The notes under the pieces were generated by a model. It was not told the DNA's origin and did no database searches. It saw only the letters and a program-made list of their open reading frames with translations. Shown piece by piece: positions 364 through 4,352 of a stretch of 8,181 nt of DNA (its first letter is position 1; each line of letters opens with the position of its first letter). The position numbers were made by a program, and so were the translations under genes. This stretch comes from Candidatus Desantisbacteria bacterium CG1_02_49_89 (GTDB lineage Bacteria; Desantisbacteria; UBA1551): assembly GCA_001871075.1 (NCBI GenBank), contig MNUP01000105.1, forward strand, positions 1 to 8,181, given 5' to 3'.

Positions 364-1122
364 TTACCAGGGTCGCACCCATGTAGGTGTATATCTTTGT
401 TCGGCCATAAATCTAATAGAATTTAGTTCGCCATTTAAACATATCTTTTTCGGGCTTTGTGGCATCTTATCAATTCTTGCTTTAAGAAATGGTGCGGCAT
501 CCATTCCCATCTCTGTTAAATTACACCCGATTCCTTTTTTTATAATAGTTTCTACCGAAGAAATGCCTGGTCTAATCATTCCTGAATAGGTATCTGGATA
601 TTGGTCTACCAAATAATCTACCCTACCTTTTATAGTTGAAATACCTTTCAGATCCATCTCCCTTCTAATAAAATACATATAAGCATATATTCTTGGGTCA
701 TCATATTCTGCCAGAGATGAAGTCTCTGAAGTAGCCATATAATAAAAAAGTTTATATACTTCATCATCTTTCCAGTTTGATAGAAAGCGTACAGCATAGT
801 CCAAGATGTCACCAAACAAATTATCGTAACACATTATTTTGGTTTCTTCGCGTGGGCCGATTTCTATAGTCCCTTTAAGAATTTTTAATATTTCACTCCT
901 TGCTCTTTCGCCTCCGATTTGCGATAAAGCCAAAATTACTGATGCTTTTACGCCAGGAGGGGCTTCAGCTATTTGCATTGTGTAGGTTTCATCTTTATAT
1001 GCCTTTAAAAGAAAATCAATAGCTCTTGAGTCTTTTAATTCTCCCAGCCTGCGCACTGCTCCTGCCCTCGTCTCTTCCCCAGAATCATTCAAATATGAAA
1101 TCAATTGTTCAATACTATTCAT
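364..1122 (-). CDS. HEAT-repeat protein (probable mature part of a secreted protein)
   Basis: The 252-residue product has two clear HEAT-like helical repeats in its N-terminal third: residues 4-42 (SIEQLISYLNDSG..VRRLGELKDSRAIDFLLKAY) and about 57-84 (GVKASVILALSQIGG..ILKILKGT). After these come less regular helices (98-135) and a tail containing RFMAEQRYTPTW. HEAT repeats form protein-binding solenoids; no enzymatic motif is visible. The listed ATG follows directly on an in-frame TAG (1123-1125) that closes a signal-peptide ORF, so the native gene is probably 1248-364, one exported protein of about 294 residues interrupted by a nonsense codon. Translation could instead restart at TAGATG, with GGAAAG about ten bases upstream. 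The segment is clearly more AT-rich than its neighbours, suggesting a separate origin. A strong terminator follows the TAA stop. Confidence 0.8.
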   Translation of the reverse strand: MNSIEQLISYLNDSGEETRAGAVRRLGELKDSRAIDFLLKAYKDETYTMQIAEAPPGVKASVILALSQIGGERARSEILKILKGTIEIGPREETKIMCYDNLFGDILDYAVRFLSNWKDDEVYKLFYYMATSETSSLAEYDDPRIYAYMYFIRREMDLKGISTIKGRVDYLVDQYPDTYSGMIRPGISSVETIIKKGIGCNLTEMGMDAAPFLKARIDKMPQSPKKICLNGELNSIRFMAEQRYTPTWVRPW

Positions 1123-1248
1123 CTATTTGATACTTTCCGGTATATCTCTATCTAATTTGGGAAGATCTGATGCAAAAATACCTTGAAAAAGATTTACATT
1201 AACAGTTAAAATAAATGTTAAAAATATTATTTTATAAAATATTCTCAT
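1123..1248 (-). CDS. Signal-peptide ORF, 41 aa, in frame with the HEAT-repeat gene
   Basis: An ATG at 1248 with a good ribosome binding site (AAGGA at 1258-1262, eight bases upstream) opens a 41-codon frame. It begins MRIFYKIIFLTFILTVNVNL and ends in PESIK before TAG. The product has the form of a Sec signal peptide: basic residues at 2 and 6, a hydrophobic core at about 8-22, and a likely cleavage after GIFA (residue 31). The mature part would begin SDLPKLDRDIP. The TAG abuts the ATG of the HEAT-repeat frame with no shift, so the two almost certainly were one gene. As a stand-alone gene it would produce little beyond a signal peptide. A repairing substitution at the TAG (for example to CAG, Gln) would join them. 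Confidence 0.7.
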   Translation of the reverse strand: MRIFYKIIFLTFILTVNVNLFQGIFASDLPKLDRDIPESIK

Positions 1249-1336: not shown

Positions 1337-1858
1337 TCAACCTACTTTAAAACCTATCCGTGGTTTTGGTTTTTCATTGAACGCCAGCATTTGACGGATG
1401 GCTTCAAAGATAGCCTGTATTTCTTTGTCGTGTTTGTCTACCCTGCTTTCAAGTTCCTTGAATTTATGGGCAAGGGCTATATTGGTAGAAACTAATCTTT
1501 TTATTTTAACGAATGCTCTCATTATGGCTATATTGACCTGGATAGCTCTTTCGCTGTTTAGGACGCTTGAAAGCATGGCAATGCCCTGCTCTGTAAAGGC
1601 ATAGGGCGGTCTCCTCAGCCCCATTTTGGCTGAGGAATTGGAAGTCGCAATTTGCGACCTCCAACTTTTCAATTCACCTTTGCTTAACTGAAACATAAAG
1701 TCCCCGGGAAACCTCCTGATGTTTCTTCTTACCTGTTCGTTCAGCCGTTTTGTCGGCACGCCGTATAGTTTGGCTAAAACGCTGTCAAGCATTACCTTCT
1801 GTCCGCGAATAAGGAGTATCTTGCTTTCGATAACTTCCTGGGGTACCATTGCCTTCAC
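1337..1858 (-). CDS. ORF6N-domain DNA-binding protein
   Basis: The 173-residue product matches the ORF6N family seen in phages and in bacterial accessory regions. The N-terminal domain covers about 8-66, with the typical stretch IRGQKVMLDSVLAKLYGV and the following RLNEQVRRNIRRFPGDFMFQ. The second hallmark, YAFTEQGIAMLSSVLNSERA, is at 86-105. A short predicted coiled coil follows (about 133-158, ELESRVDKHDKEIQ...). ORF6N proteins are small DNA-binding or regulatory proteins of mostly unknown target. The start is GTG at 1858, supported by GGAAGG at 1865-1870; the ATG three codons on is too far from that site. The gene lies 71 bases after the dehydrogenase and is probably independent cargo. The coding region holds two adjacent palindromes (1613-1664), and just past the stop a +1 frame continues with coding-like sequence to 1282. 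Confidence 0.88.
   Translation of the reverse strand: MKAMVPQEVIESKILLIRGQKVMLDSVLAKLYGVPTKRLNEQVRRNIRRFPGDFMFQLSKGELKSWRSQIATSNSSAKMGLRRPPYAFTEQGIAMLSSVLNSERAIQVNIAIMRAFVKIKRLVSTNIALAHKFKELESRVDKHDKEIQAIFEAIRQMLAFNEKPKPRIGFKVG
1613..1664. repeat. Two adjacent palindromes inside the ORF6N gene
   Basis: CCTCAGCC (1613-1620) pairs with GGCTGAGG (1628-1635). Three bases on, 1638-1650 pairs with 1652-1664 at 12 of 13 positions around a single central base; its core is GTCGCAA-T-TTGCGAC. Together they encode residues about 65-82, between the two conserved blocks of the ORF6N protein. They could be an inserted palindromic element, an operator or an RNA structure. Confidence 0.6.
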
Positions 1859-3230: not shown

Positions 3231-3512
3231 TCACTTGCGGCCATGTTCCCGATAATACTTCAGCCCTTCGACAAACGTAAGTATATTTTCTCTATTCGTT
3301 CCGGGAGTGATCGAGCTGGAACCCCCGAGGAACAGCCCTGTTTTTGGGCCGTTCTCCACCAGCCATTTCATTTCGGCGCGGACTTTGTCAGGCGTCCCGA
3401 ACGGAAGCGTTGTAGTCACGGAAACCCCGGCTATTATCAACATTGAATCCCCGTCCTTCGCTTTCATCCTGCATATTTTCTCGTAATCCATCCCAGCTTC
3501 ATACTGAAATCC
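3231..3512 (-). pseudogene. URO-D-fold protein, C-terminal part downstream of the in-frame TAG
   Basis: This segment continues the frame of 3513-4352 without any shift. It encodes GFQYEAG, then from the ATG at 3491 an 86-residue stretch: MDYEKICRMKAKDGDSMLI, GVSVTTTLPFGTPDKV, and GLFLGGSSSITPG..NRENILTFVEGL. These are the last strands and helices expected of the URO-D TIM barrel, including the glycine-rich GGSSS loop and the final xxPxxxxEN-type segment. The ATG at 3491 has no convincing ribosome binding site, so I do not read it as a separate gene. Joined to the upstream part it gives a normal-length protein of 373 residues. Whether the C-terminus is made at all depends on read-through, suppression or a sequencing error at 3513-3515. 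Confidence 0.8.
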
Positions 3513-4352
3513 CTAGAAACCCTTAAGCCCGGCGTCCAGCAGCATCGATATCATTGCCATCAGGTTGCCGTCGCAGTGCCATATAACATTCATACCGGGT
3601 ATGCTGACAACCGGGCGCATGGCCCGCTTGAAATGCGGGAACCAGATCTTTTCCAGACTTTTGATATCTACGAGCGTGCCACGGGAGTCTGTCATATCGT
3701 GGTCTGACCTGCATAAAAGCGGCATTTCCTCTTCGATAATCGCCTTTGCCGCTGCCCTGTTATGCATTTCCGCGTAGTCCGCCTGCAGCTTGAAATCTTT
3801 TTCCATTATTTCCGGGTAAAGCGCGTATGCAGTGAAATAATTGACGTACCCGTACCAACCGTACCGGAAAACCGGGAAAAGCACGAAGCCATAAGGAACT
3901 TTCAGGATCGAACTGCCTATTCTTTCCTGGATTGCCTTTTCACTGCTGATTATTTCTTTTGCTGTTTTTTCCTCATCGAATGTTTCTTTTGCTTTTTCCA
4001 ACTGGGGAAAAGCTATCTTTTCCAGGTGCTCAATAACCGCTTCCGGTGAATCAATAACCATTCCGTCCAGCACGATCTTTTCCGCGCCTGTTGTCGCGCC
4101 TTTCTGCGTCCCGGATTCAAAACCATCTCTCCTCATACTCAGCGGATTTTCCGGAATGAACTGGTCTATGAAATCAACTCCCGCGTTTTTCTGCGCCTTA
4201 AGGTACGTGCCGACCGGATCTTTGAGGTATGTCCCCGGCTTCTCGCCGGCAAGCTCATCAAGGATATCAAAATCCATGGTGTGGACTATCCACGTCGGAA
4301 TGCCCTTTACTTTCTTCCTTGCAATAGTATCCAGTACCGCCTCAAAACTCAT
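3513..4352 (-). CDS. URO-D-fold (uroporphyrinogen decarboxylase / methyltransferase-like) protein, N-terminal part, interrupted by TAG
   Basis: The frame opens at ATG 4352 (AGG six bases upstream, a modest site) and runs 279 residues to TAG at 3513-3515. It resembles the URO-D superfamily, which includes uroporphyrinogen decarboxylase and the cobalamin or CoM methyltransferases (MtaA/CmuA types). Visible features are the N-terminal helix MSFEAVLDTIARKKVKGIPT and IPGMNVIWHCDGNLMAMI (about 252-268), where His259-Cys260 occupies the position of the barrel-strand histidine and metal-ligand region of the methyltransferase branch. The usual uroporphyrin-binding motifs are not evident, so heme synthesis is unlikely. 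The stop falls in LKGF*GFQYE, in the middle of a conserved barrel segment. The product as listed would lack the last quarter of the barrel and probably not fold. The substrate is unknown. It is followed by a Gfo/Idh dehydrogenase. Confidence 0.82.
   Translation of the reverse strand: MSFEAVLDTIARKKVKGIPTWIVHTMDFDILDELAGEKPGTYLKDPVGTYLKAQKNAGVDFIDQFIPENPLSMRRDGFESGTQKGATTGAEKIVLDGMVIDSPEAVIEHLEKIAFPQLEKAKETFDEEKTAKEIISSEKAIQERIGSSILKVPYGFVLFPVFRYGWYGYVNYFTAYALYPEIMEKDFKLQADYAEMHNRAAAKAIIEEEMPLLCRSDHDMTDSRGTLVDIKSLEKIWFPHFKRAMRPVVSIPGMNVIWHCDGNLMAMISMLLDAGLKGF

Follow-up and report, generated by a model that had tools for sequence, protein, structure and literature searches.

This locus raises the question of whether a leader with the features of a Sec signal peptide and a HEAT-repeat frame, parted by a single TAG codon that is directly followed by ATG, are the two halves of one exported protein interrupted by a nonsense codon, or an arrangement in which the stop codon serves restart or read-through. 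The window, meaning the whole stretch of 8,181 nucleotides analysed here, is the entire contig C144 of a genome of 2.48 Mb that was assembled in 150 contigs and is 93.5% complete.

The leader, the stop codon and the HEAT-repeat frame

On the minus strand, an AAGGA ribosome-binding site (1257-1261) is located 8 nt upstream of the leader ATG (1246-1248). The 41 sense codons of the leader (1126-1248) are translated as MRIFYKIIFLTFILTVNVNLFQGIFASDLPKLDRDIPESIK, comprising a Sec-type signal sequence and a linker of 15 residues. An in-frame TAG (1123-1125) separates the leader from the HEAT-repeat frame of 252 codons (367-1122), which ends in a stop codon at 364-366. The first codon of this frame is the ATG adjoining the TAG (1120-1122), a possible restart codon having upstream only a weak motif of the GGAA type. 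An ATG would be found right behind any given in-frame stop in about 2.5% of cases by chance, this being the frequency of Met.

The leader was examined with a rule (n-region, hydrophobic stretch, A-x-A-like site) rather than with SignalP, and by this rule it has the positive N-terminus, the hydrophobic core and the small residues at the cleavage site characteristic of Sec export. When the 210 bases upstream were subjected to 20,000 dinucleotide shuffles, an in-frame signal-peptide-like leader without a Shine-Dalgarno motif arose seven times, and one with such a motif never did. Chance therefore does not account for a signal-peptide-like leader that shares the frame of the HEAT repeats. A preliminary description of the window had pointed to a 41-codon Sec-type leader with a ribosome-binding site, a TAG and then the ATG of the HEAT frame; the coordinates and the shuffle test agree with it, and the signal peptide that it proposed is the one recognized by the rule.

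By sequence comparison, the HEAT frame is a real one. It matched the Pfam families HEAT_2 (E 8e-10, 39.3 bits against a cut-off of 27.7) and HEAT_PBS (E 1e-7, 31.8 bits against a cut-off of 20.9) within residues 4-82, and its PDB matches were alphaRep/HEAT chains (1e-25). The remainder, the C-terminal 170 residues of the gene, matched no known family. In the joined sequence of 294 residues HEAT_2 starts at residue 46, placing the entire HEAT domain downstream of the TAG. A single-sequence AlphaFold model of the joined residues was helical but of low confidence (mean pLDDT 50), too weak for a fold search, and in this weak model the TAG position separates a short helix from the first HEAT helix. 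The HEAT gene (364-1248) is AT-rich, with 35% GC compared to 47% in the rest of the window, and codon bias within it is too weak to lend independent support to either frame. Directly upstream is a gene with an ORF6N domain, a phage-type regulator (1337-1858, minus strand). No Rfam match was found in the window.

Paralogues and the proposed joined protein

Several HEAT_2 proteins are encoded in the same genome. In four of these paralogues (L002, L102, L104, and L106), a signal peptide directly precedes the first HEAT repeat in an unbroken frame, and the linker of L104 ('NPEEIGN...') aligns with the 'IPESIK' of the window just ahead of the first HEAT helix. These exported HEAT/PBS-lyase-like proteins (PF13646, PF03130) resemble the window gene in the order of signal peptide and HEAT repeats and in a similar short linker. 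They differ from it in that their frames are unbroken, whereas the window gene has a TAG at codon 42, and in that its C-terminal part is without recognized relatives. Because the four paralogues carry the signal peptide and the HEAT repeats in one unbroken frame, the leader and HEAT frame of the window are best read as encoding one exported protein.

Two further HEAT proteins of the genome, L101 and L103, have no signal peptide, in keeping with a reading in which the window holds two separate genes, one for a short peptide, secreted or serving as a leader, and another for a cytosolic HEAT protein truly starting at the ATG at 1120-1122. The position of this ATG ahead of the entire HEAT domain would also suit such a pair. 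A separate leader gene, however, would yield a mature peptide of only 15 residues; the leader and the HEAT ORF share one frame and adjoin without a spacer; and the Shine-Dalgarno-like motif ahead of the HEAT ATG is weak. Two genes at this site thus appear very improbable to us.

An orthologue of the HEAT protein was sought in its own genome, in its phylum, in 59 and 386 other genomes, in genome_contigs, and in phages and plasmids, and HEAT-level similarity at most was returned. The comparison within the phylum involved one other genome, the phylum being a poorly sampled lineage with two. Since no orthologue was found, it is from the paralogues and from the anatomy of the locus that we infer an ancestral joined state, in which the gene was once uninterrupted. 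The uninterrupted homologues to which the preliminary description had looked for the joined protein of 294 residues were thus met with as an architecture, in the four paralogues, but not as an orthologue.

These considerations lead us to regard it as likely that 367-1248 on the minus strand is one exported HEAT-repeat gene with a recent nonsense codon, and that the ATG following this codon is probably incidental. The ancestral product would have been a protein of approximately 294 residues, in which a Sec signal peptide was joined to the HEAT repeats by a short linker. A recent nonsense TAG at codon 42, within the linker, would halt translation after the signal peptide and linker, and the exported product would presumably be lost. 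The ATG behind the TAG would then probably be an internal Met codon of the original frame; some termination-reinitiation may give rise to a cytosolic HEAT fragment, which we regard as incidental. The in-frame leader with its ribosome-binding site, the four unbroken paralogues, the further isolated stops within frames of this genome and the evidence that TAG is a genuine stop codon in it, the last two described below, argue for the nonsense codon. Counting against it are the fact that a cytosolic protein started at the ATG would be a complete HEAT domain and the lack of an uninterrupted orthologue in the genomes searched. Of the readings offered in the preliminary description, that of one exported gene carrying a nonsense codon is thus the favoured one, supported by the reality of the leader, the architecture of the paralogues and the comparable stops elsewhere in the genome.

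Possible restart and read-through at the TAG

In E. coli and Haloferax, ribosomes reinitiate efficiently only when the next start is very close (PMC10666635), and for bacteria the condition is an overlap or a very short distance. A ribosome ending at the TAG could thus restart at the ATG, the spacing between the two being 0 nt. A programmed arrangement would be one in which termination at the TAG and reinitiation at the adjacent ATG produce a short peptide that is secreted and a HEAT protein that stays in the cytosol, or in which partial read-through gives a protein two localizations. The same succession of TAG and ATG is found at an apparently natural gene pair of the same genome, where a peptide deformylase-like frame follows (L153 9102). 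In termination-reinitiation gene pairs (PMC10666635, PMC6728339), stop and start are likewise within a few nucleotides of one another. In typical pairs, however, the overlap is 4 or 1 nt and each of the two ORFs encodes a functional protein of its own, whereas the first ORF of the window encodes a signal peptide and linker only and shares its frame with the HEAT repeats.

Further evidence counts against programming. No orthologue was found in the 386 genomes or in genome_contigs, nor any relative conserving the order of leader, TAG and ATG. Stops directly preceding a start codon are present in the genome at about the chance level (9 of 155, with approximately 7 expected), and no suppressor tRNA was found. 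The RNA around the junction is without stable structure (z -0.56), on which ground we rejected a read-through element in the local RNA. Restart at a spacing of 0 nt is physically possible, with no positive support for its selection or programming. The preliminary description had entertained TAGATG as a site of restart or read-through leading to two localizations. With RF1 intact in addition to the results above, this part of it found no support, and we consider a programmed site very improbable.

Mid-gene stops and the status of UAG

Mid-gene stops were sought by coding score and by comparison with paralogues in 788 kb of the genome, sampled in stretches amounting to about one-third of the whole. 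Out-of-frame shadows made an initial search for interrupted genes among paralogues, run without a filter, too noisy, and a filtered one took its place; the final list was judged by eye. Nine isolated in-frame stops were retained, or approximately one comparable stop per 90 kb sampled. TAG accounts for eight (two in the window, L079 1080, L082 2164, L162 18709, L164 8474, L171 5028, and L171 6485), TAA for one (L163 171), and TGA for none. All are single stops in frames that are otherwise intact. The stop lies within the reach of a Pfam domain or a solved homologue in genes for a URO-D protein, a DUF2961 protein, CsgG, and a 3-keto-disaccharide hydrolase-like protein; propeller repeats, internal or paralogous, lend support to L171 6485 and L163 171, and L079 1080 and L082 2164 are backed by weaker similarity. 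The HEAT gene resembles nonsense-interrupted genes, that is, young pseudogenes, in that a single in-frame stop breaks a reading frame that is whole apart from it, and in having others like it in the same genome. It differs from them in that its stop is directly adjoined by an ATG, making restart possible.

The second interrupted gene of the window is a URO-D/MtaA-like gene (3234-4352, minus strand) with one in-frame TAG at 3513-3515, and homology extends across the stop. Its product shares 57% identity over 370 residues, through the TAG, with a protein from genome G016, which has Gln at the site. An alignment with 20 close relatives (50-66% identity) revealed Gln at this position in all 20.

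From codon usage, the expected share of TAG among new stops is 42% with every point change weighted equally and 65% with transitions alone. The probability of at least eight TAG codons among nine is then 0.005 or 0.12, respectively, and the excess of TAG is suggestive at most. Recent nonsense alleles scattered over the genome would account for this pattern, as would consensus errors, the genome having been assembled from a metagenome. Under the latter explanation, the TAG of the HEAT gene would be an error of sequencing or consensus in the assembly, or an allele of a minority strain that became fixed in the consensus, and the gene of the organism would be intact. The fragmentation of the assembly and the finding that every interruption is a single stop in an otherwise intact frame are both in keeping with this. 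Errors, however, should also strike TAA and TGA sites, and the nonsense allele would be real even if only a minority strain carried it. We hold such an artifact to be unlikely.

The predominance of TAG, the absence of TGA, and the presence of two TAG-interrupted genes on a single contig would also be accounted for if UAG were translated, as a reassigned or ambiguous codon, in which case the HEAT gene and the other TAG-interrupted genes would be intact. Against this, RF1 is present and intact. None of 43 tRNAs has a CUA anticodon, and a scan of larger stretches added none. TAG terminates 85 of 362 ORFs of at least 300 codons, and approximately 20-23% of genes end in it. The residues at the TAG sites differ, with Gln in the URO-D-like gene, Tyr in four of four solved relatives of the DUF2961 protein, and, for the L171 propeller, Trp in an internal repeat that is nearly identical. 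A stop is moreover absent from the 28 URO-D and 33 GFO_IDH_MocA domains listed, in a list that lacks the window's own URO-D gene. In 192 kb of G001, a genome of the same order, the sole TAG candidate was an ordinary gene junction, and no clear mid-gene TAG was found. Genome G036 (GC 62%) was a poor control because of out-of-frame shadows.

Reassignment of UAG was rejected on the basis of the intact RF1, the common use of TAG as a terminator, the missing CUA tRNA, and the differing residues at three sites. Pyrrolysine use was rejected as well, as no match to PylS (TIGR02367) was found in the genome. A translated UAG is thus unlikely, to the point that we give it very little credence, and independent nonsense alleles explain the TAG sites better than a reassigned codon. 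We find it just as far-fetched that UAG is ambiguous and partly read through, with the HEAT protein exported following read-through and cytosolic following restart at the adjacent ATG.

Other observations were made in the course of the survey. Among the 43 tRNAs, a tRNA-Leu with an AAG anticodon in L100 (G000:C47:39014-39095), unusual for bacteria, was the weakest match (46.7 bits), and no tRNA-Gln with a UUG anticodon was seen. In the control genome G036, an in-frame TGA in a peroxiredoxin-like frame at L195 6334 (minus strand; ...FLRGFG*PYSRKHLGQ...) resembles a selenocysteine site.

As a nonsense allele of the ordinary kind, the TAG of the HEAT gene would be of consequence chiefly for annotation, since an automatic gene caller would record a cytosolic HEAT protein where the gene for a secreted one is broken. 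If the surplus of TAG in the mid-gene stops, with two genes on one contig and six others, were real and the codons were translated, it would represent a new ambiguity of the genetic code.
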